Positions 7,064 through 58,476 of a DNA stretch of 64,000 nt are shown here, piece after piece. The DNA is taken from contig DATBAK010000010.1 in NCBI GenBank assembly GCA_036271555.1, positions 62,001 through 126,000 of the forward strand, in the 5' to 3' direction. Position 1 is the first letter of the stretch; the number at the start of each line of letters is the position of its first letter. A program made the translations under genes and the position numbers. This DNA is from Acidimicrobiia bacterium (lineage in GTDB: Bacteria > Actinomycetota > Acidimicrobiia > IMCC26256 > PALSA-610). The notes below the pieces were generated by a model. It searched no databases. It had not been told where the DNA came from and saw only the letters and a program-made list of their open reading frames with translations.

Positions 7064-7902
7064 AACTCGGTCGCCGCGACTGGCTGAAGGTCCCCAACCC
7101 GACGTTGGACTGGCATGGCGTTCAGGAGCCGGGGTTGCCGCGCCGACATCTCGCGCGGATCGGTGACTGCAGCTGGCAGATCATCGACTTCGCGCACACC
7201 ATGGGTCCGCCGGGGTATCCCGCGGCGCTCGCCGACTTGCTGCGCCGGCAGGGCATCGCGATGGGGTTCTCCAACTACTTCGCCGGGACGGCCGCGGAAG
7301 TGACCGAGGCCGGCCTGGAGCGGCTGGTGCCGGTCGAGTCGGACGCGATCATCCTGCAGTTCGGAGGACGGCACGGAATGCGGCGGCTGCTGGCTTCGAC
7401 CGGCCCGCGCACGGCTTCCCTGGCGCTGTGGGCGAACTGGCGCGCGGGCTCGCTCGGCGGCTCGCTGCACCGCCATGTGACCGGGCCGGCACTCAACCGT
7501 TGGGGTCGCTCCTACTGGCCCGAGCCCGAGAGCATCGTTCGCGAAGAGGACGTCCATCGCGTGCTCTCGTGGCTGGCCGAGCATCGGCCCGGCGTTCCGT
7601 GCGCGATGTTGTCCTCGCATCCGGTACTGCGGTCGGGGTGGACGGACCGGCAGCTCGTCGAGCAGGCGACCGAGCGTTACATGCGGTTCGCGCAGGATCA
7701 TGGCCTGTTCGTGCTCGACTACCGGACGGCGATCCTGGGCCGGCTCGACTCGGGGCAGCTGCACGAGCGTGACGTGTTCGGCGCGACGGGCTACGACCTG
7801 CGCGCCGCGGGCCAATCGGTGATCGCCGAAGCGCTGTGTGACTGGCTCGGCACTCGTTGGCTGGATGGCTCCGAAGCGCCCCGGGCTTGCGGAACGCTCT
7901 GA
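7060..7902 (+). CDS. SGNH/GDSL-hydrolase-like protein of the glycan operon
   Basis: A 280-residue protein, last gene of the plus-strand glycan run, starting inside the preceding stop (ATGA). It has features that recall SGNH-fold proteins: LARIGDCSWQIIDFAH near residue 30 (GDC where GDS is usual), AIILQFGGRHGM in the middle, and FGATGYDLRAAGQSVIAEAL near the end, where block V normally carries DxxH. The Asp is present but the expected His is Arg. Such proteins in polysaccharide loci are often acyl- or acetyl-transferases or esterases acting on the glycan. The key residues are off-consensus, so it may be a divergent or inactive member, or a different fold altogether. No signal peptide is visible. 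Confidence 0.5.
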   Translation: MKLGRRDWLKVPNPTLDWHGVQEPGLPRRHLARIGDCSWQIIDFAHTMGPPGYPAALADLLRRQGIAMGFSNYFAGTAAEVTEAGLERLVPVESDAIILQFGGRHGMRRLLASTGPRTASLALWANWRAGSLGGSLHRHVTGPALNRWGRSYWPEPESIVREEDVHRVLSWLAEHRPGVPCAMLSSHPVLRSGWTDRQLVEQATERYMRFAQDHGLFVLDYRTAILGRLDSGQLHERDVFGATGYDLRAAGQSVIAEALCDWLGTRWLDGSEAPRACGTL

Positions 7903-7936
7903 TCGACGACGTCGCCGACTCGCCTCGCGCGTCGCG

Positions 7937-8869
7937 TCAGACGCGTGCCCTGATCACCGCGCGCCAGGGACCGACCGCGCTGTCGATGTCGGAGAGGCTG
8001 TAGGTCGTCACGAGCTCGACGTCACGGAAGCCCGCGTCGGCGACCATCTGCACGAGCGTGGAGAGCGCAGGCGCCCACCAGGTCGCGTCGTGGAAGCCGC
8101 CGCGGTAGCGCGTGAGGCCCGGCCCCGCACCGAGCGCGTCGATCGACGGGTCGAAGAGGTCGGCGAGCAACGCCTCACCTGAGCACACCCCGCGCAGGCG
8201 CTGCAGCGCGAGCGCGGGATCACGCAGGTGCAGGAGGATGTCGCCCGCGTGCACGAAGTCGAACGTGCCGATCGACGCGGGGTCGAGGTCGTAGATCGCG
8301 GAGTTCACGAGCTTCACCTTCGATCCGAGTCGCCGGTGCGCGATCTCCATGCCCTGCCGGAACGACAGGTCCATGTCGCGGTCGACGAACAGCGCGTGGA
8401 TCGCGCGCGGCATGTCGACCTCCGAGAATGTCTCGATGTCGACGCTGGTCACCTCGGCGCCCGTGCGCTCGAGCGCGAAGGCCCAGAAGCCGTCGCCGCT
8501 GCCGACGTCGAGCGCGCGCTTACCTGTGAGGTCGACGGGCAGGCCGTAGTGGGGGAGCAGCGGCCGGTGATCGAAACGACCGGGGGTCACCACGCCGCCG
8601 GGCAGCTCGATCGTGTGGTACCAGCCCTGCGCGGCGATCTCGTCGGCCGGCTCCTGCCGCGGGCGCGACTCCTCCTCGGCGATGAAGGCGCGCATGAACG
8701 CCATCTCCTTCTCGCGCCGGTCGATGTCGACGCTGGGCGGCGGCGCGAACGACAGCTTGTCGGGCGTCGCCGCCGGCTTCGGCCGCACCGCGCGCACCAT
8801 CTTCCCGAGCCAGTCGGGGACCTCGACCGTGACGCCGAAGCCGCCGGCGTGCGCTCCACGCTTGCTCAT
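7937..8869 (-). CDS. SAM-dependent methyltransferase, DUF1698/CmoB-like
   Basis: A 310-residue protein whose central part matches the DUF1698 methyltransferase group, related to the tRNA-modifying CmoB fold but common in glycan loci. The opening WYHTIELPGGVVTPGRFDHR is characteristic. Motif I is RALDVGSGDGFWAFALER, followed by VTSVDIETF, with the later strands FDFVHAGDILLHLRDP and GEALLADLFDP. The first 75 residues are charged and probably flexible. It is the last gene of the minus-strand exporter cluster, 36 bases after the Wzt gene. Because no tRNA-modification partner is nearby and the whole neighbourhood is glycan biosynthesis, a sugar methyltransferase is the more likely role. Confidence 0.8.
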   Translation of the reverse strand: MSKRGAHAGGFGVTVEVPDWLGKMVRAVRPKPAATPDKLSFAPPPSVDIDRREKEMAFMRAFIAEEESRPRQEPADEIAAQGWYHTIELPGGVVTPGRFDHRPLLPHYGLPVDLTGKRALDVGSGDGFWAFALERTGAEVTSVDIETFSEVDMPRAIHALFVDRDMDLSFRQGMEIAHRRLGSKVKLVNSAIYDLDPASIGTFDFVHAGDILLHLRDPALALQRLRGVCSGEALLADLFDPSIDALGAGPGLTRYRGGFHDATWWAPALSTLVQMVADAGFRDVELVTTYSLSDIDSAVGPWRAVIRARV

Positions 8870-20802: not shown

Positions 20803-20915
20803 CCGTTCACGCACAGTGGCCATGGGAGGGCACTGCGTGGTCACGGGGCTCCCGTGATTCTGGGGTTTTGGGCGACGGACGGGGGCGCGCGAGTGCCTCT
20901 CGAACGCACGGAGGC

Positions 20916-23900
20916 ATGGTGCGCACTCAAGGTTTCTGGGGCTTTGCTCGTCGGTCGGCGCGGGTCGCAGTCGCGACCGTGGCCGTCACCGCTCTCGGTA
21001 CGGGAGCGGTCATCGGCCTCGCCGCCGGTCCCGCGGCGGCCGCCGATCCCGGCAGCATCTCGGGTCGGGTGACGAACGCGGCGGGCGGTGCCGGCATCGA
21101 GGGCATCTGCGTCGGCGCGTACGTGCACGGCTCCGACGAGCAGACGCTGCTCGTCGACACCGCGACCGCGGCCGACGGCACGTACACGATCACGAACGTC
21201 CCGTCCGGTGCGGTCGACGTGCGCTTCAGCGCGACGGGCTTCTGCCCGAACGGACTCGCATCCGGTTTCGTCGGCGAGTGGTACAACAACCAGCCGTCCG
21301 AGGCGTCCGCGAACACGGTCACGGTGAACCCCGACGCGACGACGTCGAACATCAACGCGTCGCTGGCGAACGGCGGCACGATCAGCGGCAAGGTCACGAA
21401 CGTGGTCGGCGGTGCGGGCCTCTCGGGCATCTGTGTCGCCGCGCTGATCCCCGGCGGTGACGACGCGCTCGTCACGAGCAACGCGACCAACCCCGACGGC
21501 ACCTACGCGCTCACCGGAGTTCCGAGCGGCGGTGTGCACGTCGAGTTCTTCGCGACCGGCTTCTGTCCGGGTGGCACCGCGTCCGATTTCGTGACGCAGT
21601 GGTACAACAACCAGGTCTCGGTGCTGAACGCCGACACGGTGAACGTGGCGGCCGGCGGCACGACCGCGAACATCAACGCCGCGCTCCGCGCATCCGGCTC
21701 GATCAGCGGCAAGGTCACCGACGCGAACGGCGGCGCTGCGATCGCCGGTATCTGCATCTCCGTCTACGAGCCGTACCAGTCGGGTGTCGCGCCGCAGCTC
21801 GTCACGAGCACCGCGACCGCAGCCGACGGCACGTACACGCTCGACGGCGCGCCGGTCGGCGCCAACGACGTGAAGTTCTATTCGTCCGGCTTCTGCCCGG
21901 GCGGCCTCGCGTCGAACTACGCGATGGAGTGGTACAACAACGAAGCGCTCCAGTCCGCGGCCGACGTCGTGACCGTGAGCGCGAGCGCGACGACGCCGAA
22001 CATCAACGCCTCGCTCGTGTCGGGCGGCTCGATGTCGGGCAAGGTCACGGCGAAGACGGGTGGCGCGGGGCTCAACGGCATGTGCGTCGCGGCGTTCAGC
22101 ACCGGTGACGACCCGGTGGTCGTCGCGAGCATCGGCACGAACCCCGACGGTACCTACCAGCTCGACAGCATCCCGCCGGGCACCGTGCGGGTGCGCTTCA
22201 ACTCCCAGGGCTTCTGCCCCGGCGGCATCGGCAGCCTTCCCGGCATCTACGACCAGGTGTGGTATTCGAACGCGGCCGACTTCGATTCGGCCCAGGACGT
22301 GACGATCAACGTCGGCCAGACGACGCCGAACATCAACGCCGCGCTGGTCGGCCCGAGCTCGTTCTCGATCAAGGTCAACGGCTCGTCGACGACGAGCACG
22401 GTCGGCTACGGCTCGACGGTCGCGTTCTCCGAGACGGGCATCCCGACTGCGGCGACCGGCTCGGTCGTGTTCAGCTCGTCCGGTCACTCGAACCTCTGCA
22501 CGATCACGCTGCCGGCGACGAGCTGCAACGTTGCGAGCCCGCTGGCGGTCGGTTCGTACACGCCGATCAGCGCGAGCTTCCACGACACCGACGGTGGTCT
22601 CCACGACTCGACGTCGACCAACACGGTCGGCCTCACGGTGAACGTCGCAACCACGTCGTTCTCGATCGCGGCGAACGGCGTGACGAACGCCTCGGTGGTC
22701 CGTGGCAACCCGATCACGCTGTCGGCGTCGGGGATCTCGACGCTCGCGCACGGCTCGGTCGTGTTCTCGACGACCGACAACCCGAACGTCTGCACGGTCA
22801 CGCTGCCCACGACGAGCTGTGAGCTCGACGGTCTCGCGGTGGCTTCCTACGGGCCGGTGAGCGCGGCATTCACCTCGACCGACGGCAACTTCACGAGCGC
22901 GGCGGCGACGAACACGGTGTCGTACATCGTGAGCGCAGCGCCGACGTCGTTCACGCTCGCGGTGAACGGTGGTGCGAGCGCGGCGGTATCGCGCGGCGCG
23001 ACGCTCACGTTCTCCGAGTCCGGTCTGCCCGTCGACGCGGCCGGCACGGTCACCTTCTCGACCACCGACCGTCCGAACCTCTGCACCGCGACGCTGCCTG
23101 CAACGAGCTGCGACGTGGTGCACGGCCTGCCGGTCGGCTCGTACGGACCGATCAGCGCGACCTTCGTGACCGCGGACCTGAACTACGCGGGCTCGACGGC
23201 GACGAACACGGTGACGGCCGACGTCGCTCCGGTCGCGCCGAGCGCGCCGCGTGCGGCCCACTACTCGGTCTCGTCGCACAACGCGACGGTTCGGTGGAGC
23301 GCACCGAGCGACAACGGCGGCTCGAGCATCACCGCCTACTCGGTGACGCTGAACCCCGGCCACAAGACGGTTGCGGTGTCGGGTGCGACGACCGAGGCAA
23401 CCTTCGCGAACCTCAACCCGGGCTCGACGTACGAAGTGACGATCACGGCGACCAACACGGCCGGCACCGGCCCGGCGTCGTCGCTCGCGGTCTCGGTCGC
23501 CAAGCCGCTGTCCGGCTACTGGATGCTCGGCGCCGGCGGCCAGGTCTATGCGTTCGGCAACGCCAAGGCGTTCGGCAACGCGCCGGGCGCGGTCGTGGCC
23601 ATGACGGCTCGTCGTGACGGCAGCGGCTACTGGACGGTCGACTCGCACGGCACGGTGCACGCATTCGGTGCCGCGGCCCTGCACGGCGGGAACCCGGCGC
23701 TCCGTGCGGGTGAGTCGGTGTCGACGATCGCGTCGACGCCTTCGGGCAACGGCTACTGGCTCTTCACCGACCAGGGCCGCGCCTTCGCCTACGGCGACGC
23801 GCAGTTCTTCGGCGACATGGCGAAGGTGCACCTGAACGGCCCGATCGTGGCGTCGGCGGCGACGGCGACCGGCAAGGGCTACTACATGGTCGGTTCCGAC

Positions 23901-24245
23901 GGCGGCGTGTTCAGCTTCGGCGACGCCAAGTTCCACGGCTCGACCGGCGCGATGAAGCTCAACAAGCCGATCGTCGGCATCTCACCGACGCCCGACAACC
24001 GCGGCTACTGGCTCGTCGCATCCGACGGCGGGGTGTTCGCCTTCGGTGCGCCGTTCCGTGGCTCGATGGGCAGCCACAAGCTCAACAAGCCGGTGAACGG
24101 GCTCGTCGCCTTCGGCAACGGCTACCTGATGGTGGCGTCCGACGGGGGCATCTTCGACTTCTCGAACAAGCCCTTCGTCGGCAGCCTCGGTGGGGTGTCG
24201 ATCCCGGCGCCGATCATCGGGGTGACGGCGTTCGCCACCGAGTGA
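20916..24245 (+). CDS. large secreted repeat protein (4 CnaB-like, 3 Ig-like, FN3, GYW repeats)
   Basis: A 1109-residue exported protein. After a signal peptide (ARVAVATVAVTALGTGAVIG, cleaved near AAAA-DPG) come four repeats of about 108 residues starting SGRVT/SGKVT. They resemble carboxypeptidase-regulatory/CnaB folds and each carries a conserved Cys pair (GICV... and GFCPGG). Three Ig-like repeats (SFSIKVNG, SFSIAANG, SFTLAVNG), one FN3 domain (NATVRWSAPSDNGGSSITAY) and six C-terminal GYW repeats (GYWLVASDGGVFAFG type) follow. It probably forms an elongated cell-surface or matrix adhesin. There is no LPXTG or C-terminal membrane anchor. ATG 20916 sits just after GGAGG; TTG 20868 and GTG 20919 are alternatives. 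It heads the plus-strand secreted-protein block. Confidence 0.85.
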   Translation: MVRTQGFWGFARRSARVAVATVAVTALGTGAVIGLAAGPAAAADPGSISGRVTNAAGGAGIEGICVGAYVHGSDEQTLLVDTATAADGTYTITNVPSGAVDVRFSATGFCPNGLASGFVGEWYNNQPSEASANTVTVNPDATTSNINASLANGGTISGKVTNVVGGAGLSGICVAALIPGGDDALVTSNATNPDGTYALTGVPSGGVHVEFFATGFCPGGTASDFVTQWYNNQVSVLNADTVNVAAGGTTANINAALRASGSISGKVTDANGGAAIAGICISVYEPYQSGVAPQLVTSTATAADGTYTLDGAPVGANDVKFYSSGFCPGGLASNYAMEWYNNEALQSAADVVTVSASATTPNINASLVSGGSMSGKVTAKTGGAGLNGMCVAAFSTGDDPVVVASIGTNPDGTYQLDSIPPGTVRVRFNSQGFCPGGIGSLPGIYDQVWYSNAADFDSAQDVTINVGQTTPNINAALVGPSSFSIKVNGSSTTSTVGYGSTVAFSETGIPTAATGSVVFSSSGHSNLCTITLPATSCNVASPLAVGSYTPISASFHDTDGGLHDSTSTNTVGLTVNVATTSFSIAANGVTNASVVRGNPITLSASGISTLAHGSVVFSTTDNPNVCTVTLPTTSCELDGLAVASYGPVSAAFTSTDGNFTSAAATNTVSYIVSAAPTSFTLAVNGGASAAVSRGATLTFSESGLPVDAAGTVTFSTTDRPNLCTATLPATSCDVVHGLPVGSYGPISATFVTADLNYAGSTATNTVTADVAPVAPSAPRAAHYSVSSHNATVRWSAPSDNGGSSITAYSVTLNPGHKTVAVSGATTEATFANLNPGSTYEVTITATNTAGTGPASSLAVSVAKPLSGYWMLGAGGQVYAFGNAKAFGNAPGAVVAMTARRDGSGYWTVDSHGTVHAFGAAALHGGNPALRAGESVSTIASTPSGNGYWLFTDQGRAFAYGDAQFFGDMAKVHLNGPIVASAATATGKGYYMVGSDGGVFSFGDAKFHGSTGAMKLNKPIVGISPTPDNRGYWLVASDGGVFAFGAPFRGSMGSHKLNKPVNGLVAFGNGYLMVASDGGIFDFSNKPFVGSLGGVSIPAPIIGVTAFATE
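21054..22352 (+). repeat. four tandem ~324-base repeats coding CnaB-like domains
   Basis: Repeats begin at 21054, 21378, 21699 and 22029, with lengths of about 324, 321, 330 and 324 bases. Each encodes S-(I/M)-S-G-(R/K)-V-T at its start, a Gly-Gly turn, a GICV/GMCV Cys, a DGTY turn, GFCP(G/N)G and a closing NINA(S/A)L strand. The WYNN tetrapeptide recurs in the first three. Confidence 0.8.
23514..24242 (+). repeat. six GYW repeats at the C-terminus of the large surface protein
   Basis: The six units start GYWMLG, GYWTVD, GYWLFT, GYYMVG, GYWLVA and GYLMVA, each about 36-46 residues with a (D/S)GG(V/I)F-x-FG core. The regular spacing suggests a small beta-propeller or beta-rich array. The array is closely matched in the next gene (25129-25860). 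Confidence 0.75.
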
Positions 24246-24252
24246 CGAATCC

Positions 24253-25863
24253 ATGAAGCGAGCGACACGGCGACGGCCGGCGCGCGGGCTCCTGCTCGCG
24301 GCGCTGGCCGCCGTCGCGACCATGGCGCATGCGGCGCCGGCGCGCGCGGCGATGCCCGCGCCCGTCGCCGCGGTGACGGCGGGCGACCTCGGCTACCCGT
24401 ATCCGAGCGCGCCGGACTGCGACGAGCAGACCGGAACGAACTGCGTCGCGGACCAGTGGGGCTTCGTCGAGGGCCAGTGCCACTCGTGGGTCGCGTACCG
24501 GCTCAACGAGCTGAACGCGGCCGAGCTCGGCGGCACGTTCGACGTCGACTACCGCATGCCGGCCGGCGACGAGTGGGGCAACCCGTCGAACTGGGACACG
24601 GCCGCGCAGGACGCGGGCATCACGATCAACGCGACGCCCGCGCTCGGCTCGGTCGCGTGGTGGGCGGCGGACGGCGGGCACGTCGCGTACGTCGAGGCGG
24701 TCAACGCCGACGGCAGCGTCGAGATCTCGGAGATGAACTCCGATTATCACAACGGCTTCGACTTCGCGACGCTGACGCCGACGACGCGCTGGCCGGACGC
24801 GTTCCTTCACATCGCCGACCGCCCGCCCGTCGTGTCGGCGCCGATCGCGCCGGGCGCGCCGACGACGGCGCACGCGACGCAGTCTGCGCACACGATCGTC
24901 CTGACGTGGAAGGCGCCGAGCAACAACGGAGGTTCGGCGATCACGCACTACTCCGTCGCGATGAGTCCGGGTAGCCGCACGGCCACGACGGCCGGTTCGT
25001 CGACGCGTACAACCTTCACGAACGTCGCGGCCGGGAGCTACACGCTCCGGGTGCGCGCGCAGAACGCCGCGGGAACCGGCGCGTGGTCGAGTGCGTCGAA
25101 CCGCGTCGTCGTTCCCGCATCGCGCTCGGGGTACTGGATGCTCGGCGCGGGCGGTGCCGTGTACGAGTTCGGTGATGCCGTGCGCTACGGCGATGCCGGG
25201 AAGCCGATGGTCGCGATGGCCGCGCGTCGCGACGGGCTCGGATATTGGACCGTCGATTCGCGTGGCCGCGTCCATTCGTTCGGCACCGCGACCGCTCACG
25301 GAGGCAGCCCGCTGTTGCGCGTGGGTGAGTCGGTGTCGACGATCGCGGCGACGCCTTCGGGCAACGGCTACTGGCTCTTCACGAACCAAGGGCGCGCCTT
25401 CCGTTACGGCGACGCGCACGTGTTCGGCGACATGTCGAACGTGCACCTGAACGGCCCGATCATTGCTTCCGCGGCCACCGCGACGGGGAAGGGCTACTTC
25501 ATGGTCGGTTCCGACGGCGGTGTGTTCAGCTTCGGCGACGCCCGGTTCCACGGCTCGACCGGCGCGATGAAGTTGAACCAGCCGATCGTCGGCATCTCAC
25601 CGACGCCCGACAACCGGGGTTACTGGCTCGTCGCGTCCGACGGCGGCGTGTTCGCATTCGGTGCCCCGTTTCGGGGTTCGATGGGGCACGTGCGCTTGAA
25701 TCGACCGGTGAACGGACTCGTGGCGTTCGGCAACGGCTACCTCATGGTCGCCTCCGACGGTGGCATCTTCAATTTCTCGAATCAACCGTTCTTCGGCAGC
25801 CTCGCCGGGCGGCCGCTGCCGGCGGCGATCGTCGGGATCTCCGCGTTCGCGACGAATGGATGA
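24253..25863 (+). CDS. secreted CHAP-domain protein with FN3 and GYW repeats
   Basis: A 536-residue exported protein. The signal peptide is residues 1-32 (RGLLLAALAAVATMAHAAPA). The CHAP amidase/peptidase domain (about 48-185) has the probable catalytic Cys in VEGQCHSWVAYRLNELN (Cys76) and His in DGGHVAYVEAV (His143), with Trp-rich surroundings typical of the family. An FN3 domain (about 190-285) and six GYW repeats (from about 293) follow. It should cut peptidoglycan cross-links or stems, with the repeats tethering it to the surface. It starts 7 bases after the large repeat protein and probably shares its transcript. The C-terminal third is nearly the same as that of the upstream protein. 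Confidence 0.82.
   Translation: MKRATRRRPARGLLLAALAAVATMAHAAPARAAMPAPVAAVTAGDLGYPYPSAPDCDEQTGTNCVADQWGFVEGQCHSWVAYRLNELNAAELGGTFDVDYRMPAGDEWGNPSNWDTAAQDAGITINATPALGSVAWWAADGGHVAYVEAVNADGSVEISEMNSDYHNGFDFATLTPTTRWPDAFLHIADRPPVVSAPIAPGAPTTAHATQSAHTIVLTWKAPSNNGGSAITHYSVAMSPGSRTATTAGSSTRTTFTNVAAGSYTLRVRAQNAAGTGAWSSASNRVVVPASRSGYWMLGAGGAVYEFGDAVRYGDAGKPMVAMAARRDGLGYWTVDSRGRVHSFGTATAHGGSPLLRVGESVSTIAATPSGNGYWLFTNQGRAFRYGDAHVFGDMSNVHLNGPIIASAATATGKGYFMVGSDGGVFSFGDARFHGSTGAMKLNQPIVGISPTPDNRGYWLVASDGGVFAFGAPFRGSMGHVRLNRPVNGLVAFGNGYLMVASDGGIFNFSNQPFFGSLAGRPLPAAIVGISAFATNG
25129..25860 (+). repeat. six GYW repeats at the C-terminus of the CHAP protein
   Basis: Units start GYWMLG, GYWTVD, GYWLFT, GYFMVG, GYWLVA and GYLMVA in the same order as the array at 23514-24242. 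Long stretches match it at DNA level, for example the region coding SVSTIAATPSGNGYWLFT against SVSTIASTPSGNGYWLFT. Confidence 0.75.
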
Positions 25864-35327: not shown

Positions 35328-36083
35328 TCACTGCAGGCCCGGTCCCTCCCAGAGCTTGATGCCGCCGAGCAGCCCCGCGCGGTTGTCGACGAGGCGCACC
35401 TTCGGGCCGAGATCCGCCGTGATGTGCTTCGCGTTGCCCCCGCCGACGAGGATCGCGTCGGGGAGCACGAGTGCGTCGACGGTCTCGACCGCCTTGGCGA
35501 CGCGCTTGTTCCACTTCTTCTTGCCGATCTTCTGCAGCGCGGCGTCGCCGAGGTATTCGTTGTACGTCTCGCCACCCGAGAGTGGATGGTGCGCGAGCTC
35601 GAGGTGCACCGCGAGCGCGCCATTCGAGAACACCGCGGTGCCGACACCGGTCCCGAGCGTCATCACGAACTCGAGTCCCTTGCCCGACACCGCGCCCGCT
35701 CCCTGCACGTCGGCGTCGTTCGCGACGCGGCACGGTTTGTCGAGCCTCTTGCCGAGCGCCGTCGCGAGGTCGAAGCCGCTCCACGCGCGCACGAGGTCGT
35801 CGTCGATGTCGGTGCCGAGGCCCCGCTCCGTCGAGAACGCGGGCGCGGTACGAATCTTGCCGTCGCGCACCGCGCCGGGGAAGCCGACCGATACGCGGTC
35901 GTAGGGCGGCAGGTCGGCGACGAGCTTGGCGAGATCGTCGACCAGCTTGGTCGGCGGCATCGGGAACGTCGTCGGCACGCGGACGCGATCGTGCAGCGGC
36001 TTGCCCTTCGCGTCGAGCACGGTCGCCTTGAGCCCCGTCCCACCGATGTCGATCGCCAAGGTGGTCGTGCTCACCGGTCGCAC
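35328..36083 (-). CDS. ppgK: ROK-family sugar kinase, polyphosphate glucokinase-like
   Basis: A 251-residue kinase that would phosphorylate glucose using polyphosphate or ATP. The N-terminal phosphate loop LAIDIGGTGLKATVLD, the segment VGFPGAVRDGKIRTAPAFS, the sugar-binding NDADVQGAGAV, FVMTLGTGVGTAVFSNGAL and the C-terminal AILVGGGNAKHITADL follow the order of actinobacterial PpgK proteins, and the length fits. The RVPTTFPMPP segment is also PpgK-like. The first start is GTG 36083; GTG 36074 is possible. The gene is not clearly in an operon: an 85-base gap with a dispersed repeat separates it from the PhyH gene. Confidence 0.7.
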   Translation of the reverse strand: MRPVSTTTLAIDIGGTGLKATVLDAKGKPLHDRVRVPTTFPMPPTKLVDDLAKLVADLPPYDRVSVGFPGAVRDGKIRTAPAFSTERGLGTDIDDDLVRAWSGFDLATALGKRLDKPCRVANDADVQGAGAVSGKGLEFVMTLGTGVGTAVFSNGALAVHLELAHHPLSGGETYNEYLGDAALQKIGKKKWNKRVAKAVETVDALVLPDAILVGGGNAKHITADLGPKVRLVDNRAGLLGGIKLWEGPGLQ

Positions 36084-36168: not shown

Positions 36169-37149
36169 TCACCCTCCTTCGGCAGCGCGGGCGGACGGCT
36201 GGAGTGCGGCGTACCAGGGGCCGAGATCGAGCTCCGGATAGCGCTCGTGCGTCAGCGCCAGCAGGTCGTCGTCCCAGACTTCGTGACCGGGCGGCGGGAA
36301 GCCGAACAGCGCGAGCTCGCGCGGCGTGCAGCTCTCGACGAACGCGGTCCACGACGAGTCGGTCGCGCGCGACTGCTGCGTGTGGAAACCGACCCACTCC
36401 TGGCTTGCGAGCCGGAAGCTGACGTTCAGCAGGTAGCGCGCGCCACGCGGGTGCGTGAGGTCGATCGCGCGGTGGAACACATCGGGCCGGTATACGAGCA
36501 ACGAGCCGCGCGGTCCGCGCGCGGGACGTTCGGCCGCGTACAACGCCGGGTCCCACTTGGGCAGCACGAGCAGCTCGGTCGGTGTGTGGTCGCGCGAGTC
36601 GCGCAGCGCCACGAGGTGCGTCGGCGCGCAGTCGTCGTCGACGTCCGAGAGGTAGAGGAACGACTCGACGTGACGCAGCGGCGCGTCGGCGCGCGCAGGC
36701 AGCCACGAGTGATTGCGATCGGTGTGCATCGGCTGCTCGTAGTTCGTGAGCCCCGTGTACTTCGCCGACACCGACGCCTGGTACAGACGGATGTCGTCGG
36801 TGCCGAGCGCGCGCTCCGCGAAGTCGACGATCGACGGGTGCACGTACAACCGGTTGAGCGCGCCGGACCCCGGAAGCGGGAACTGACCCTGCCACCGGTG
36901 CTGCTCGGGCCGGAAACCCGGGCCGTCCTCCGGCCACGTGTACACCTCGTTGGCCGGCGGGGGCCGGCCGAGACGCCGCTCGGTCTCACCTTCCGGGTCG
37001 GCGTGATACTGCTCGGGCGTCGGGAACAGCTCGCGCAGGTCGACCGCAGCGGCGTCGATCTCGTCGGGGTCGATCAACCCGTCGAGCAACACCCAGCCGT
37101 CGGTCTCCCATGCCGCGATCTCGGCCGCGGTCGCGCGCCGGGAGCTCAT
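36169..37149 (-). CDS. phytanoyl-CoA dioxygenase (PhyH) family protein
   Basis: A 326-residue Fe(II)/2OG-dependent oxygenase of the PhyH type. The N-terminus AAWETDGWVLLDGLIDPDE is the family opening. The metal site is seen as YEQPMHTDRNHSWLPA (HxD) and the distal YRPDVFHRAIDLTHPRG. The conserved Arg in FRLASQEW may bind the cosubstrate. It starts inside the stop of an ABC ATPase gene (ATGA), so it is translationally coupled to a transporter, an unusual neighbour for this family. It probably hydroxylates a lipid-like or amino-acid-like molecule moved or sensed by that system; this is inference. Confidence 0.85.
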   Translation of the reverse strand: MSSRRATAAEIAAWETDGWVLLDGLIDPDEIDAAAVDLRELFPTPEQYHADPEGETERRLGRPPPANEVYTWPEDGPGFRPEQHRWQGQFPLPGSGALNRLYVHPSIVDFAERALGTDDIRLYQASVSAKYTGLTNYEQPMHTDRNHSWLPARADAPLRHVESFLYLSDVDDDCAPTHLVALRDSRDHTPTELLVLPKWDPALYAAERPARGPRGSLLVYRPDVFHRAIDLTHPRGARYLLNVSFRLASQEWVGFHTQQSRATDSSWTAFVESCTPRELALFGFPPPGHEVWDDDLLALTHERYPELDLGPWYAALQPSARAAEGG

Positions 37150-37823
37150 CGGGAAATCCAGGTCGTCACCGTCTCATCTGACCACGGTCCGTCGCCCGCG
37201 TGCGAGGCGGGCGCGAGCTCGATGCGGCGGTCGGCGCCTGCGGCGATGTCGGCCTCCCGCGTCGCGACGAGGCAGGCGGTTCCGCGCGCCGCTCGTTCGC
37301 GGAGGAGCCGCACGACGGTCTCGGCGTTCTGGCGGTCCTGGTGCGCGACCGGCTCGTCGGCGAGGATCACGTCCGGCGTACCTGCGAGCGCGCGGGCGAC
37401 CATCACCCGTTGCCGTTCGCCGACCGAGATCTCCTGCACGTTGCGGTGCACGAGCCGGTCGAGTCGCAACGCCTCCATCAACTCGGCGATCGCGTCGTCG
37501 GCGAGCTCGACGCCCGCGCGCGTCGCGAGGGTGATGTTCTCGATGACGTCGAGCTCGTCGACGAGCGCGAACTGTTGGGGCACGACCGCGACCGCCGACC
37601 ACGGCGGCGGGCTCGCGCTGGCGCCGACCCACTCGACGGTGCCGGAGTCGGGACGGTCCCATCCGGCGAGGAAGTTCACGAGGATCGTCTTGCCGCTCGC
37701 GGTAGGACCCGTCACCGCGACGAGCTCACCGCGCGTCAGCTCGACATCCGGGAACGTGAGCGTGCGCGGGGGTTGGTCGACCCGTTTCGTGACCGAGGTC
37801 GCGCGCACGCCGGTGATCGTCAC
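37146..37823 (-). CDS. ABC transporter ATP-binding protein (second ATPase of the FtsX-type system)
   Basis: A 225-residue ATPase. Walker A is AVTGPTASGKTILVNFLAG, the Q-loop is VAVVPQQFALVDELDV, the signature is EISVGERQRVMVARAL and Walker B is DVILADEPVAHQD. The switch region reads TACLVATREADIAAGA: the H-loop His normally found as THD or SHD is not there. It may thus be the weaker half of a heterodimer with the neighbouring ATPase, which keeps its His. It overlaps both neighbours by four bases (GTGA, ATGA). Confidence 0.85.
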   Translation of the reverse strand: MTITGVRATSVTKRVDQPPRTLTFPDVELTRGELVAVTGPTASGKTILVNFLAGWDRPDSGTVEWVGASASPPPWSAVAVVPQQFALVDELDVIENITLATRAGVELADDAIAELMEALRLDRLVHRNVQEISVGERQRVMVARALAGTPDVILADEPVAHQDRQNAETVVRLLRERAARGTACLVATREADIAAGADRRIELAPASHAGDGPWSDETVTTWISR

Positions 37824-38635
37824 GGCTCGTCGATCCGCACGCGACCGTCGACGACCGAGAGCCGCACCCGCCGGTCGGGGAAGAGATCCACCGCGTCGTC
37901 CGGCAGCTGCACGCGTCCTGCGTCGTCGATCACCGCGAGCGGCTCCTCGCCCGCGCGCGCGGCGCGCGCCGCGAGGGTGCCCCGGCGGATGACGAGCAGC
38001 TGGTCGGCGACCTCGATCACGGCCGGGTCGTGCGACGAGATCAGGAACGTCTGCCCGGCGTCGGCGTATGCGGGAAGGCTCGCGACGAGCGCGGCCGTCG
38101 CATCCGGATCGAGCTCGGCCGTGGGTTCGTCGGCGACGACGAGCGACGGGTCGCCCGCGACCGCCATCGCGAACGCGAGGCGTTGCTGCTCACCCGCGGA
38201 GAGGCTGGACACGCGCCGGTCCGCAACTCCGGCGAGGCCGGCCGCCGCGAGCAGGCGGTCCGCCGCCGCGCCGTGCTCACCGCGCATCCGCAGCGCGAGG
38301 ACGAGGTGCGCGCGCACGCCCAAGTACTCGAGCAGGTTGTCGGCAGGACGCTGGAACACGTAGCCGATCCGGCGCGTCGCGATGCGTCGGCGCGCGCGGG
38401 CGCGCAGCATGGTGGTCGCGCGGCCGTCGACCCACACCTCTCCCGCCGCGGGTCGCTCGAGACACGCGACGAGCCGGAGAAACGTCGACTTGCCGGCGCC
38501 CGACGGCCCGATGACGACGGTGGTGCTGCCGGTGGGGAAGCGTGCCGCGACCCCGCCGAGGGCGAGCACCGCGCCGCCCGCGGCCGGATACATCTGCACG
38601 AGGTCGCGGCACTCGGCCGCGAGGTCAGTCGGCAC
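37820..38635 (-). CDS. ABC transporter ATP-binding protein (LolD/MacB type)
   Basis: A 271-residue ATPase with complete motifs: Walker A VVIGPSGAGKSTFLRLVAC, Q-loop YVFQRPADNLLEYLGV, signature SSLSAGEQQRLAFAMAV, Walker B SLVVADEPTAELDPD and H-loop FLISSHDPAVIEVADQL. A short C-terminal extension (PLAVIDDAGRVQLPDDAVDL) resembles a small regulatory tail. It overlaps the end of the permease gene by 11 bases and the next ATPase by four. It should power the 894-residue FtsX-like permease. Confidence 0.88.
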   Translation of the reverse strand: MPTDLAAECRDLVQMYPAAGGAVLALGGVAARFPTGSTTVVIGPSGAGKSTFLRLVACLERPAAGEVWVDGRATTMLRARARRRIATRRIGYVFQRPADNLLEYLGVRAHLVLALRMRGEHGAAADRLLAAAGLAGVADRRVSSLSAGEQQRLAFAMAVAGDPSLVVADEPTAELDPDATAALVASLPAYADAGQTFLISSHDPAVIEVADQLLVIRRGTLAARAARAGEEPLAVIDDAGRVQLPDDAVDLFPDRRVRLSVVDGRVRIDEP

Positions 38636-41309
38636 GGCGCAACATCTCCGCGAGGCTCCGCCGCGTCGCGGTGCGTTCGACGAGCGTCGCCAGCAGCAGC
38701 GTCGCGAGCACGGCGCCCGCGAGACAGATCGCGACGGCGACGAGGTCGATTCGGAACAGCGGCGCGGGCGGGATCTGCGGCGCGGGATCGATGTGCGAGA
38801 ACACGATGCCGATCGCGACGACCGAGAGGACGCTGCCGAAGATCACGGCCGCGCCGATCATCGTGCCGACCTCGGTCATCGTGGCCCCGATCGTGGCCCG
38901 GCGGCTCACACCGACATGCCGCGCGACCGCGATGCCGAGGCGACGACGATCAGCGATCGACGCGAAGTAGAGGCCGAGGCCGCAGAGGCTGACGATCCCG
39001 GCGACGAGACCGATGATCTGCAGGTAGCGGAGCGCCCACAGCTGCGGCGCGAGGTCGCCCGGCGCGAAGTCGCTCGCGCGCACGACCGACGTGATCGGCA
39101 TGCCCTCGGCGAGGAGCGTGGAGCGGATCGAAGGTGTCGTCCGGTTGACCCAGATCTCGGGCGTGTCGGTCACGCCCGCCTTCGTCAGCGCGGCGCGATC
39201 GATGACGACGAGTGGCTGGTCGCTCTCGAAGCCGAGCCCGGGGAACGCGTGCGGGCGCGCCACGACGTCGACTGCGAGCGTGGTCGACAGCGACCGCGTG
39301 CCGTGGTGCGCGTCGAGCGAGAGCACGAAGCGGTCCGGGAGCCCGTCGCCGATTGCGAGCGCGGGAACGCCGGAGTGGTCGTGCTCGGCGAGGGCGCGGA
39401 CGAGAGAGGAGAGCGAGCGGCTCGAGAACGGCCGCTCCCAGAACGCGCCGCGCGCGAACGTCGCGGGGTCGAGGCCGAGGACATCGGCCCGAGCGTGATC
39501 CGTACCGCCGTTGTTGTTCTCACGCGTGCGCGTCACCTCGGTCGCGTACGCGCCGAACGGTGAAGACTTCGGCAGCGGTCGCGCGCTCACGAGCGAGAAC
39601 GCCTGCGCGCTCCCGGGGCCGAGTGTCGACTTCGCGCGAATCGTCGCGCGCAGCGACGACGCGAGACACGCTGAGAAGACGACGATGCCGACCGCGACCG
39701 TCGCGCCCGCGATCAGCGGCACCGCGCGCGCCCGTGCCGCGGCGACCCGTCGGAGTCCGAGCCACAGGCTCGTCGCGCGGCGCGGACCGGCGAGGCGCGC
39801 GAGGTCGCTCCGAACGGCCGCGCGCGCGAGCAGCCCCCCGCAGCCGGCGATCAGCAGCACGGGGAAGAGGAGCACCAGCGTGTCGACGTGCGCGCCCGCG
39901 CTCGGTGAGCCCGGCGATCCGCTGCGCGTGCTGAGCTCGTACAGCGCGGCGCCCGCGACGGCGAGGACCGCCGGTTCCCACAACGCGAGCCGCGCCCGCG
40001 CGCTCACCGATTCCGGCGACAGCCCGATCTTGCGGACTCCGAGCCAGATCACGAGCGCGATCGCGGCGAGCGCGACCACGACGGCCGCACCGACGAGCTC
40101 GGCCGCGCTCACGACCGCGTGCGACGCGATCGCGGAGCTGGGTCCGACCGCGCGCACGAGCAGGTCGCCGGCCACGACGCCGATCGCGCCTCCGAGCAGC
40201 ATCGGCGGCGCGAGCTCGAGCACGCCCTTCATCGCCAGCGCGGCGGGCCCCGCCCCGCGCAGCGCCAGCACGACGACCTCCTTGCGCCGCCGATCGAGCC
40301 ACGTGTGCGCGGCGACGAGCAGCACCAGGAGCGCGACACCCGCGCCGCCGAGCGCGACCGGCCCGACCGTCGCCGATCCCGTCTTCGAGGCCTGATCGGA
40401 ATGCGCGAGCGTCGACTCGGAGTCGACACTCGAGGTACCCAAACCGAACACGCGCCCTTCCGGCAACGTGAAGTTGCTCGTCGCCGCGGCGATGTGCTCG
40501 AGCGCGGGGATCGTGCGCGTCGCGTTCGCGACCGTCCAGTGCGCGGGGTCGGGCGCGTACTCCCACCAGGCTTCGACCGCAGGCATGTGCGCGCGCGACG
40601 ACACGCCGAGCAGCGTCGACCGATCGAGGAACCCGGTCGGCGACGGGACCGCCACGCCGTAGCCGTCGAGCGCCTGCTGCAGCGAGCACCACGAGCGGTC
40701 GCGACGCCCGCCGGCGAGGTCGCGGAACACCGCGTGCACGACGAGCGGCGTGGCGACGAAGTTGTCGGAGAGCACGACGCGATCGCCGGCCGCAAGGTGG
40801 AGCGTGCGTGCGGTCGTGTCGGGGATCCAGATGCCCGGCGCCGCGACGGCGTGGACGACGTCGACGTGGTGCTCGAAGCCCGTCCGAGCGAGCACCTGCA
40901 TCGAAGCGCTCGACGCGCCGCCCTGCGGGCCGAGCCGCATCGTGCCGCCGAAGACGGTGATGACCACGGGCGAGAGGGCGGGCAGCTTCGCCACGTCGGC
41001 GTCGAGCGTCGTCGTGCCGACCGGCACGTCGACCGCGGGTCGCAGTGCGCCGCCCGCCGTCGCCGGCGCGGGTGAGACCGTCGACGCCTGGCGCTGGACG
41101 CGCAGACCCACGTCGGACGCGCAACCCTGATCGACGTCGGAACGCAGCGCCGCGGTCCCGGCCGACGAGGAGAAGAGCGGGCGCGAGCCGGCGGCGATGC
41201 CGAGCACGAGCGCGGCGACCGCGATCGACGCGAACAATGACGGTGCGCGGAGCAGACGGCCGGGTGCGCGCCGCCAGGGCGAGAGCGTCAGCAGACGCAA
41301 CCAACGCAC
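38625..41309 (-). CDS. FtsX-like ABC permease with large extracellular domains
   Basis: An 894-residue membrane protein. TM1 (LFASIAVAALVLGIAAG) is followed by a long exported region with LRVQRQASTVSPAP and ILVPLS-free beta segments. Then come hydrophobic helices (VGPVALGGAGVALLVLLVAA, VSAAELVGAAVVVALAAIAL) and a second exported domain, ending with LQIIGLVAGIVSLCGLGLYF, VGTMIGAAVIFGSVLSVVAI and FRIDLVAVAICLAGAVLATL. The two-domain layout with helices around RKEVVVLALRGAGP and RRRLGIAVARHVGVS fits the FtsX/MacB superfamily, duplicated. These systems transmit ATP hydrolysis to the outside or extract lipids rather than pump small solutes. GTG start; first in an operon with two ATPases and PhyH. 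Confidence 0.82.
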   Translation of the reverse strand: MRWLRLLTLSPWRRAPGRLLRAPSLFASIAVAALVLGIAAGSRPLFSSSAGTAALRSDVDQGCASDVGLRVQRQASTVSPAPATAGGALRPAVDVPVGTTTLDADVAKLPALSPVVITVFGGTMRLGPQGGASSASMQVLARTGFEHHVDVVHAVAAPGIWIPDTTARTLHLAAGDRVVLSDNFVATPLVVHAVFRDLAGGRRDRSWCSLQQALDGYGVAVPSPTGFLDRSTLLGVSSRAHMPAVEAWWEYAPDPAHWTVANATRTIPALEHIAAATSNFTLPEGRVFGLGTSSVDSESTLAHSDQASKTGSATVGPVALGGAGVALLVLLVAAHTWLDRRRKEVVVLALRGAGPAALAMKGVLELAPPMLLGGAIGVVAGDLLVRAVGPSSAIASHAVVSAAELVGAAVVVALAAIALVIWLGVRKIGLSPESVSARARLALWEPAVLAVAGAALYELSTRSGSPGSPSAGAHVDTLVLLFPVLLIAGCGGLLARAAVRSDLARLAGPRRATSLWLGLRRVAAARARAVPLIAGATVAVGIVVFSACLASSLRATIRAKSTLGPGSAQAFSLVSARPLPKSSPFGAYATEVTRTRENNNGGTDHARADVLGLDPATFARGAFWERPFSSRSLSSLVRALAEHDHSGVPALAIGDGLPDRFVLSLDAHHGTRSLSTTLAVDVVARPHAFPGLGFESDQPLVVIDRAALTKAGVTDTPEIWVNRTTPSIRSTLLAEGMPITSVVRASDFAPGDLAPQLWALRYLQIIGLVAGIVSLCGLGLYFASIADRRRLGIAVARHVGVSRRATIGATMTEVGTMIGAAVIFGSVLSVVAIGIVFSHIDPAPQIPPAPLFRIDLVAVAICLAGAVLATLLLATLVERTATRRSLAEMLRRAD

Positions 41310-55818: not shown

Positions 55819-55959
55819 AAGCGACCTCGCCGACTCCCATTCGGCGCCGGGTCGGGCGAGCCTGCGAGTCGGACCAGTAGACGTGTGGTGGTAGCACCCC
55901 ACGAGCGCGCCGGGCCGCCACCTTGGTCGCTCACCCTCGGAACGCGACACTGCGAGGCG

Positions 55960-58476
55960 ATGGGGCAGGTCGGGCGGTTCGCGTGGTACCGGTTCCGGAC
56001 CACGATCAGGCGGCGCGGGACGGGCTACGTCGCGCTGACCCTGCTGGTGGGATCGCTCGGTGGGCTCGCGTTGGCATCGGTCGCGGGTGCGCGCCGCACG
56101 CAGTCGTCGTATCCCGCGTTCTTCGCGAGCACGCATCCGTCCGACATGACGTTTCCGACTGCGCTCTACGGCCTCGACGGCGCGACATCCGGCTACGCGG
56201 CGTCGCGGCTGACTCGGATCGCGCACCTCCCGCACGTGCGGCACCTGGAGAGCTCGGCGCAACTCAACAACGCCGCGCTCGCGCCCGACGGGTCGGAGAT
56301 CGTGCCGAAGGGTCCGCTGCCGGCCAACTTCGAGGTCAGCACCGAGGCGAGCGTCGACGGCCTCGGCTTCGACCAGGACCGCGTGACGATCACGCAGGGC
56401 CGCGCCGCCGATCCTGCCCGCGCCGACGAGATGGTGATGTCGGCCGCGATCGCGAGACTCCTGCACTTCCACCTCGGCGAGGTCCTCCCGATGGGCTTCT
56501 ACACGAACGCGCAGGAGGCCGCGCCGGGCCCGAGCGGCGACGAGTGGCGCCCGCATCCGTACCGAACGGTCGCGATCCGGATCGTCGGCTTCGGCGTCCA
56601 GAACACCGCGATCGTCCAGGACGACGTCGACGCCCAGGCGTCGAACTTCGTGCTCTTCACGCCCGCGTTGACGCGCCGGCTGGTCGCGTGCTGCGCGTCG
56701 AGCACCACCACTGCGGCCGTGCTCGATCACGGCGCGCGCGACAGCGCGACCGTCGAGTCGGAGCTCGCGCGCATCAACCCGGTCCTCGCGACGCACGTCA
56801 CGGTGTCGTCGGGCGCGATCGCAAAGGCCGAACGGGCGGTGGAACCGGAATCGATCGCGCTCGCGGTGTTCGGCGGGATCGCCGCCCTCACGGTGCTCGT
56901 GCTCGCGACCCAGGCCATCGCCCGGCTCCTGCGCGTCGACCGCGAGGAGCTCGACACCGTTCGCGCGCTGGGTGCGACACCGGCGATGACGGCGACGTCC
57001 GCGCTCGTGGGCGCGCTCGGCGCAATCACGGGTGGCGTGGTGGTGGCCGGGCTCGTGGCGCTCGCGCTGTCACCGCTCGCGCCGTTCGGTCCCGCGCGTC
57101 ACGTGTACCCGCATCGCGGGATCACCCTCGACGCGACCGTGGTCGGCTTCGGCATGCTCGTGCTGCTCGGGTTCCTCGGCGTCGCGGCCGCGCTCCTGGC
57201 CGCGCGCGACGCCGTGCACCACGCAATGGCCGAAGGATCGCGCCGGCGGCGGGCGTCGTGGACGGCCGGCGCGTCGTACCTGCCGACGCCCGCGCTCACC
57301 GGAGTGCGCTTCGCGCTCGATCCCGGGCGCCGGCGCCGCGACGTACCCGTCCGCTCGGCCGTCGTCGGCACCGCGCTCGCGATCGCAGTCGTCGTCGGCA
57401 CGCTGACCTTCGGCGCGAGCCTGCACGTCCTCGTGTCGCGACCCGCGCTGTACGGGTGGAACTGGAACGACGAGCTGAGCGGGGGTGGGGGAGTCGGAGC
57501 GGTCCCGCGCGCGCAGGCCGAGTCGGCGCTCCGGCGCGACCACGACCTCGCCGCGTGGAGCGGCGTCTATTTCAGCACCGCGCGCATCCAAGGTCTGACC
57601 GTGCCGCTGATCGGCGCAACGCCCGGCGCCGCGGTCGCACCGCCGCTGCTCTCGGGTCGGGGCCTCGAACGCGCGAACGAGATCGTGCTCGGCGCGACGA
57701 CGCTCGCCGAGCTCCACCGCCAGGTCGGCGACACGGTCGAGGTCGACACCGGCGCTCGCGCACCGACGCGGCTCACGATCGCGGGGACTGCGAGCCTGCC
57801 GGCGATCGGCGGCAGCGGCGCGGGGAGCGCGCATCTCGAGATGGGCACCGGCGCGGTGCTCGACGCGTCGCTCCTTCCCGAGGGGCTCCGCAATGCCGCG
57901 GGCAACCGACCCAAAGGACCCAACGCGATCTTCGTGCGCTTCCGACCCGGCGTGAACCGCGCGGCCGCGGTGCGCGGGCTCGACCGGATCGCGGACTCGT
58001 TGAGCCTCCCGACGAACTGGGGCGTGACGGTGACGCCCGTGCAGCACCCTGCCGAGATCTCCAACGACCGATCGATCGACGGCACACCGCTCGTGCTCGG
58101 TGGCGCGCTCGCGCTCGGCGCGCTGTTCGCGTTGGGGCTCACGCTCGTCGCGTCGGTCCGGAGCCGTCGGTACGACCTCGCGTTGCTGAAGACGTTCGGC
58201 TTCACGCGCCGGCAGCTCGCCGCGGTCGTCGCGTGGCAGGCGACCACGGCGGTGTTGATCGGGGTCGTCGTCGGCGTGCCCGTCGGGATCATCGCGGGAC
58301 GCTCGTTGTGGGAGCTGTTCGCGCGCGAGATCCACGCGGTCCCGCGCCCGAGTGTTCCGACCGGCGCGATCTTCGTGATCGCGTTGGGTGCGTTGCTGCT
58401 CGCGAACCTCGTCGCCGCCGTTCCCGGACGCCACGCCGCGCGCACGCGGATCACCACCCTGCTGCGCGGAGACTGA
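55960..58476 (+). CDS. FtsX-like ABC permease without an adjacent ATPase
   Basis: An 838-residue membrane protein. A first helix (GYVALTLLVGSLGGLALASV) is followed by a large exported region (SSYPAFFASTHPSDMTF, VTITQGRAADPARADEMVMS, RIVGFGVQNTAIVQDD), then helices around ESIALAVFGGIAALTVLVLA, GALGAITGGVVVAGLVALAL and VVGFGMLVLLGFLGVAAALL. A second helical and exported set follows, ending LVLGGALALGALFALGLTLV, AAVVAWQATTAVLIGVVVGV and IFVIALGALLLANLVAAVPG. The loop YDLALLKTFGFTRRQLAAVV is a typical FtsX/MacB transmission helix. No ATP-binding partner lies nearby, unlike the related permease at 38625. ATG 55960 is used; a GTG at 55885 is possible. Confidence 0.8.
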   Translation: MGQVGRFAWYRFRTTIRRRGTGYVALTLLVGSLGGLALASVAGARRTQSSYPAFFASTHPSDMTFPTALYGLDGATSGYAASRLTRIAHLPHVRHLESSAQLNNAALAPDGSEIVPKGPLPANFEVSTEASVDGLGFDQDRVTITQGRAADPARADEMVMSAAIARLLHFHLGEVLPMGFYTNAQEAAPGPSGDEWRPHPYRTVAIRIVGFGVQNTAIVQDDVDAQASNFVLFTPALTRRLVACCASSTTTAAVLDHGARDSATVESELARINPVLATHVTVSSGAIAKAERAVEPESIALAVFGGIAALTVLVLATQAIARLLRVDREELDTVRALGATPAMTATSALVGALGAITGGVVVAGLVALALSPLAPFGPARHVYPHRGITLDATVVGFGMLVLLGFLGVAAALLAARDAVHHAMAEGSRRRRASWTAGASYLPTPALTGVRFALDPGRRRRDVPVRSAVVGTALAIAVVVGTLTFGASLHVLVSRPALYGWNWNDELSGGGGVGAVPRAQAESALRRDHDLAAWSGVYFSTARIQGLTVPLIGATPGAAVAPPLLSGRGLERANEIVLGATTLAELHRQVGDTVEVDTGARAPTRLTIAGTASLPAIGGSGAGSAHLEMGTGAVLDASLLPEGLRNAAGNRPKGPNAIFVRFRPGVNRAAAVRGLDRIADSLSLPTNWGVTVTPVQHPAEISNDRSIDGTPLVLGGALALGALFALGLTLVASVRSRRYDLALLKTFGFTRRQLAAVVAWQATTAVLIGVVVGVPVGIIAGRSLWELFAREIHAVPRPSVPTGAIFVIALGALLLANLVAAVPGRHAARTRITTLLRGD

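Follow-up and report, generated by a model that had tools for sequence, protein, structure and literature searches.

A candidate two-ATPase Type VII ABC module and a PhyH-like oxygenase as its probable lineage-specific neighbor in an Acidimicrobiia genome

Results

Organization of the four-gene block

The region under study is a 64,000-nucleotide stretch of the genome of an Acidimicrobiia bacterium (GenBank assembly GCA_036271555.1, contig DATBAK010000010.1, positions 62,001 to 126,000 of the forward strand), which is termed the window hereafter. The minus strand of the window carries a block of four genes that specify a permease, two ATPases of the ATP-binding cassette (ABC) type, and a PhyH-like oxygenase. 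The gene order and the overlaps of 11, 4, and 4 bases that were reported in an initial annotation of the sequence were confirmed from the open reading frames (ORFs). As outlined below, the permease and the two ATPases appear to form a conserved module to which the oxygenase is added in this genome, so that the unit as a whole reads as three genes plus one. The features of the block are as follows, with NBD denoting nucleotide-binding domain.

41309-38625, minus strand: permease, ORF of 894 amino acids; predicted Type VII (FtsX/MacB/YbbP-like) ABC permease
38635-37820, minus strand: ATPase 1, ORF of 271 amino acids; NBD with consensus motifs and an LD-type D-loop
37823-37146, minus strand: ATPase 2, ORF of 225 amino acids; NBD with a QD-type D-loop
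37149-36169, minus strand: predicted PhyH-like Fe(II)/2-oxoglutarate oxygenase, ORF of 326 amino acids
38625-38635, minus strand: overlap of the permease stop with the ATPase 1 start (GTG), 11 bases
37820-37823, minus strand: overlap of the ATPase 1 stop with the ATPase 2 start (GTGA), 4 bases
37146-37149, minus strand: overlap of the ATPase 2 stop with the oxygenase start (ATGA), 4 bases

The permease and two ATPases as a conserved module

The permease is uncommon among the closer relatives of this genome. Its profile was found in 24 of 396 sampled phylum genomes, this genome included (E 1e-20). Full-length homologs with 29-36% identity were present in two of 295 other genomes of the class (G204 and G246, with two copies each), and three of 60 relatives produced a weak match to the C-terminal domain of the permease only. 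A scan of contigs yielded no match with the single permease sequence and four loci with the permease profile, two of them on the same contigs as loci L060 and L057. The genomes of the phylum and class samples were drawn as subsets, and two to five candidates were scored in each genome (in the phylum samples, two for the permease and five for the oxygenase), such that misses are possible. The weak phylum-sample matches G330, G403, and G393:C64 were left out of the neighborhood table, and two of the three were examined separately as L083 and L084. Genes in relatives were called with a custom ORF and codon script, and the lists of neighbors are approximate.

The order permease-ATPase 1-ATPase 2 was observed in 20 of the 31 permease loci other than that in the window, including six in which the ATPases are fused into one protein and one that is truncated within ATPase 2. 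In another two, the sequence ends after ATPase 1. The ATPases were compared across 22 loci, namely the window, 15 other unfused loci, and the six fused loci. Of 22 loci checked for the overlap, window included, 20 have a start codon placed to overlap the permease stop by exactly 11 bases, and the remaining two have one at 14. The overlap between the ATPase genes is four bases in 14 of the 16 unfused pairs counted, again with the window included; the pairs of L114 and L118 were excluded from this count as their frames are unclear. As these overlaps are kept across loci, stopping and restarting within a few bases is an old property of the module. Moreover, because each start sits inside the end of the preceding gene, the permease, ATPase 1, and ATPase 2 are probably made together by coupled translation. 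The sequence GGAGGTG, present within the last permease codons in 12 of the 22 loci checked for the 11-base overlap, could plausibly serve ATPase 1 as a ribosome-binding site. The overlaps also make co-transcription of all four genes in the window likely.

Pfam assigned the FtsX domain (PF02687) to the permease with 43.1 bits against a cut-off of 25.5, and the single chain contains two FtsX stretches. An AlphaFold model based on five sequences, with a predicted local distance difference test (pLDDT) score of 60.9 and a predicted template modeling (pTM) score of 0.57, comprises ten long helices, and its external domains follow helices 1 and 7. The best fold match of the model was YbbP of E. coli, with a Foldseek E of 3.4e-12 and a TM-score by query of 0.39. 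The two were aligned over 493 residues by VIA-align with a Z of 21.8 and a root-mean-square deviation of 10.8, followed in order by BceB (Z 19.2), and then MacB, LolC/E, and FtsX. These top matches all belong to the Type VII (MacB/FtsX, ABC3) ABC superfamily, whose features are recognizable in the module as an FtsX-type core and dedicated cytoplasmic ATPases with ABC motifs. The description of the permease as "MacB/FtsX-type" in the initial annotation was correct in the broad sense, with YbbP as the closest fold. Residues C63 and C208 lie in the first external domain, are unchanged throughout both alignments of the permease, and may form a disulfide. Separately, related proteins are encoded upstream of the permease in L123, L125, and L126 and are a possible external partner of the module; the one that was scanned, from L125, produced weak beta-propeller matches only.

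Two dissimilar ATPases

The ABC_tran domain of Pfam matched ATPase 1 with 97.1 bits and ATPase 2 with 84.9 bits. The ATPase sequences from the 22 loci separated into two clades, ABC1 and ABC2, with support of 100/99. The D-loop is LD in all 22 examples of ATPase 1 and QD in all 22 examples of ATPase 2, and the two proteins are anciently distinct. Their fusion into one protein in six loci suggests that both act in one complex. Taken together, the two clades, the consistent D-loop difference, and the fusions argue for a fixed ATPase 1/ATPase 2 heterodimer.

The H-loop of ATPase 2 in the window possesses an arginine in place of the histidine that is found in 21 of 21 homologs. This ATPase 2 also has the longest branch in the tree (2.43) and, with ATPase 1 of the window (1.51), accounts for two of the three longest branches. 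Its Walker A sequence, GPTASGKT, departs from the usual letters of the family and still fits the pattern GxxxxGK[ST]. (The ATPase 2 row of L114 has no letters at Walker A as the frame is short there.) The Walker B glutamate and the signature are retained in ATPase 2, and ATPase 1 has every motif. Loss of the H-loop histidine probably renders one of the two ATP sites catalytically weak. The arginine, which occurs only here among the 22 loci, and the long branches of both ATPases could signify instead that the module is decaying in this genome, in which case the oxygenase would be the selected gene of the operon, next to a possibly inactive machine. However, the frames are intact, the motifs of both ATPases persist to the extent noted above, and heterodimeric ABC transporters often have one degenerate site, which together make decay highly doubtful. 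Passages of a MacB review also indicate that a heterodimer can be competent when a single NBD is functional (PMC5985334).

Identity of the oxygenase

The oxygenase scored 20.0 bits with the PhyH domain of Pfam (PF05721), which is under the gathering cut-off of 22, and was not among the ten matches in a PhyH search of its own genome at E ≤ 0.001. As the score stays below the cut-off, the protein is termed PhyH-like and not a confirmed PhyH member. Its catalytic residues H142-x-D144, H226, and R238 are conserved without exception in the alignment (14 of 14 rows). R238 is the residue that we take to bind 2-oxoglutarate. The metal triad and the arginine conform to the residue pattern of Fe(II)/2-oxoglutarate oxygenases, and this activity is predicted for the protein. 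The N-terminal residues align with those of close homologs in the profile A2 alignment, which supports the assigned start. Among solved structures, the 2-oxoglutarate-Fe(II) oxygenase 8XP6/8XPF was matched by the profile with an E of 5.5e-48 over profile positions 88-314, and its H-x-D and distal histidine aligned with those of the oxygenase, whereas the match with the single sequence was much weaker (E 4.1e-25). No paper naming PDB entry 8XP6 was found in a literature search. The single-sequence AlphaFold model of the oxygenase reached a pLDDT of only 32.6. No signal peptide is obvious by eye, and the oxygenase therefore should be cytoplasmic.

Linkage of the oxygenase to the module

A search for PhyH-like frames (profile A2, E 1e-3) was negative in all 31 permease loci other than that in the window, of which 17 extend 1 kb or more past ATPase 2, and also within the 1.5 kb flanks of the weak-match permease loci L083 and L084. 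Oxygenase homologs also were absent from G204 and G246, the two class genomes with a full-length permease, and the same query was positive in 21 of 61 genomes. The oxygenase profile was found in four of 396 phylum-sample genomes (E 1e-40) and in 28 of 395 class-sample genomes. The lists of 24 permease-positive and four oxygenase-positive genomes from the 396-genome phylum samples have this genome alone in common. The genes that follow ATPase 2 elsewhere encode an FAA hydrolase, a class-V aminotransferase, a Calx-beta protein, a glutamate dehydrogenase, and an integrase, and are unrelated to each other. The FAA hydrolase gene of L114 overlaps ATPase 2 by four bases, as does the oxygenase gene in the window. 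Exact four-base overlaps are present in two of 19 other co-directional neighbors in the window (22 pairs less three, with rough gene calls), and the overlap between ATPase 2 and the oxygenase alone is weak evidence of linkage. From this comparative context, the oxygenase appears to lie outside the conserved module. The initial annotation had viewed the block as a mechanotransmission-type ABC system with an oxygenase tied to it. The ABC part of that view holds, as a Type VII system, but the inclusion of the oxygenase is not supported in light of the 31 loci without a PhyH-like frame. Conserved co-occurrence of the four-gene order was looked for and not found, and in the samples the association is unique to this genome.

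Two other explanations for the block were discarded. An artifact of frames or coordinates is rejected given the intact frames and the agreement of the oxygenase start with its homologs. The block does not resemble mobile-element cargo: the permease had no match on plasmids at E 1e-8, and the GC content of 0.70-0.74, compared to 0.67-0.73 in the surroundings, does not mark a clear island. One distant plasmid match to the oxygenase was recovered (29.6% identity, E 5e-32), and no viral relative of the oxygenase was present among 20 pattern matches. No conserved genomic site was found around the block.

Neighborhoods of the oxygenase in relatives

Orthologs of the oxygenase (54-66% identity) were located in 15 relatives beside genes other than the module. 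A short-chain dehydrogenase (SDR) gene overlaps the ortholog by four bases in L036, with an acyl-CoA dehydrogenase gene ~1.7 kb away, and the end of the same SDR is visible in L035. The ortholog is accompanied by an SDR and a luciferase-like monooxygenase in L041, an SDR in L045, a second PhyH and a convergent fatty acid desaturase in L043, and a methyltransferase in L038, and a P450 gene is situated beside a more distant homolog in L048. The contigs of L035, L043, L044, L047, and L049 end near the oxygenase gene. The orthologs keep other partners in these neighborhoods, and membership of the oxygenase in the ABC system, for which the initial annotation suggested that it may modify a lipid, peptide, or antibiotic, is not supported. 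The simplest reading is that the oxygenase is a catabolic enzyme with changing partners. A sharper version of this reading, to which we give an even chance, is that a lone catabolic oxygenase moves between operons and degrades an imported lipophilic compound, with the ABC module upstream by chance. The SDR, acyl-CoA dehydrogenase, luciferase-like monooxygenase, second PhyH, desaturase, and P450 genes listed above and a branched-chain-type (Liv-type) ABC importer beside certain orthologs are in keeping with this version, but no one partner is conserved across all of the orthologs.

Other genes in the window

The gene that follows the oxygenase begins 85 bases after it:

35328-36083, minus strand: ROK-family kinase, polyphosphate-glucokinase-like

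The kinase gene is a possible operon tail that is outside the three-gene module. A homolog (E 1e-30) occurs in one of 13 other genomes of the family, away from the oxygenase there. The window also encodes a second, different FtsX/MacB_PCD permease of 863 amino acids at 55885-58476 on the plus strand. Two large proteins are specified by neighboring genes on the plus strand, one with carboxypeptidase-regulatory repeats and fn3 (20868-24245) and the other with CHAP and fn3 (24253-25863). The C-terminal parts of these proteins recur in L034, L049, and L171.

Discussion

The pairing of the oxygenase with the ABC genes is best explained as that of a lineage-specific neighbor. The account that we consider probable is that of a Type VII machine, comprising the products of the first three genes, next to which a cytoplasmic oxygenase was captured into the operon in this lineage. 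The machine would consist of one ten-helix permease with two external domains, powered on the cytoplasmic side by two dedicated, non-equivalent ATPases that form a heterodimer, with the three ABC proteins synthesized together through the start-in-end overlaps. By analogy with YbbP and LolCDE, the machine probably pulls a hydrophobic molecule from the outer leaflet or moves an external partner; passage of a solute through a pore appears less likely. In the window, ATPase 2 without the H-loop histidine would leave one ATP site weak. The oxygenase, which is from a local metabolic family and is placed directly behind ATPase 2, would act in the cytoplasm on a lipophilic compound and would share the transcript without being a component of the machine.

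A number of observations weigh against this account. The order permease-ATPase 1-ATPase 2 is usual, not universal: the ATPases precede the permease in three of the 31 loci, and neither ATPase is beside the permease in six. The permease model, built from five sequences, is of moderate quality only. The linkage to PhyH could be old in an unsampled lineage, as the samples hold no other member of this genus. Around the oxygenase family, transport could be a theme that recurs, as three orthologs adjoin the Liv-type ABC importer. In L039 and L040 the importer is on the same strand with the oxygenase behind, and the ends nearly or actually overlap; in L045 the importer is convergent to the ortholog. 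Pfam analysis of L040 alone revealed an MFS-ABC ATPase fusion (L040:3135-5384) and a two-permease protein fused to a second ATPase (5384-8242), and similar arrays are present in L039 and L045. In addition, a different FtsX-type permease is tail to tail with a PhyH-family gene at L034:9655-12129 and L165:6653-9232, the PhyH-like gene in L165 being a more distant homolog. No ABC ATPase frame was present next to either permease in the fetched stretches, with the nearest in L034 ~8 kb away. An ABC ATPase lies within 3 kb of three of the 15 orthologs, all in the same Liv-type array. Four genomes gave 64-108 ABC ATPase matches each, with 108 here, and FtsX domain matches number 26 in this genome and 31 and 25 in two others. 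In our judgment, the closeness of oxygenase loci to ABC or FtsX genes is an enrichment that is suggestive at most. These loci speak most for a transport theme and were given weight, but other proteins are involved, and genes for FtsX and ABC proteins are frequent in the genomes concerned.

The same loci bear on whether the pairing is functional in this lineage. On this route, the oxygenase would act in the cytoplasm to hydroxylate a lipid, peptide, or antibiotic, and the product would be exported or extracted by the Type VII machine. The ATGA overlap on the same strand and the retained H-x-D...H...R residues are compatible with such a route, for which the orthologs beside the Liv-type importer, directly behind it on the same strand in G049 and G016 and convergent to it in G020, provide some transport precedent and the two family loci that are tail to tail with other FtsX permeases a further parallel. 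However, none of the 31 other permease loci has a PhyH-like frame and no homolog was found in G204 or G246. The permeases in tail-to-tail position are not the same protein and are encoded on the opposite strand, and FtsX-type permease and ABC ATPase genes are common. A functional link peculiar to this lineage is conceivable, but we judge this route unlikely. A more elaborate device, in which the ATPases form an obligate heterodimer with one degenerate member and a lipid-like substrate is hydroxylated inside by the oxygenase and then extracted by the machine, is quite improbable. No paper bearing on a pairing of an oxygenase with a Type VII ABC system was found among titles and abstract openings. 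Returning to the account of a captured neighbor, the four-gene pairing looks local and is no basis for a functional assignment of the oxygenase or of the ABC module. Of more lasting value is a two-ATPase variant of the YbbP-like Type VII plan, for which no published description, in the form of two distinct ATPases serving one ten-helix permease, was found in titles, abstract openings, and passages. If the motor is asymmetric by construction, it could be used to test whether one firing ATP site suffices for mechanotransmission or two are required.

Among known systems, the module most resembles the plan of YbbAP. In the portions of the YbbAP study consulted, YbbP is described as a ten-helix protein whose external domains fall between helices 1-2 and 7-8, the periplasmic esterase TesA is a partner, and the complex is proposed to pull hydrophobic molecules from the membrane (PMC12646458). 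The modeled permease of the window shares with YbbAP-TesA (PDB 9GE6/9GE7) the single ten-helix chain and the two external domains, and in both cases ATPase genes are separate from, and adjoin, the permease gene. According to passages of the MacB review, fused permeases come with separately encoded ATPases (PMC5985334). The resemblance fails in the number of ATPases: two copies of YbbA operate there, in contrast to what would be two distinct, dedicated ATPases here. The identity between YbbP and the permease of the window is 12-13% in structural alignments. Furthermore, YbbAP works with the periplasmic hydrolase TesA, whereas the oxygenase is a cytoplasmic-looking and non-conserved neighbor, and a TesA-like role for it was rejected as the compartment is wrong by eye. 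BceAB(S) also has a ten-helix, single-chain permease, and BceB, the second-ranked fold, is the only FtsX-type solved structure that was reached by the permease sequence profile, albeit weakly (E 0.024). BceB differs in possessing one external domain, a single ATPase used twice, and the membrane partner BceS, as gathered from parts of two reports (PMC12646458, PMC11466899), compared to two external domains and two ATPases in the module of the window. The seven rows shown of table 6 in the latter report likewise give the same ATPase twice for each Type VII system of B. subtilis (PMC11466899). LolCDE, MacB, and FtsEX have an FtsX-type core that matches one half of the permease with Z ~13-14, but their permeases are half-size and act in pairs, as also stated in parts of the MacB review (PMC5985334). 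The module in the window would combine a YbbP-like permease with a pair of dissimilar ATPases.

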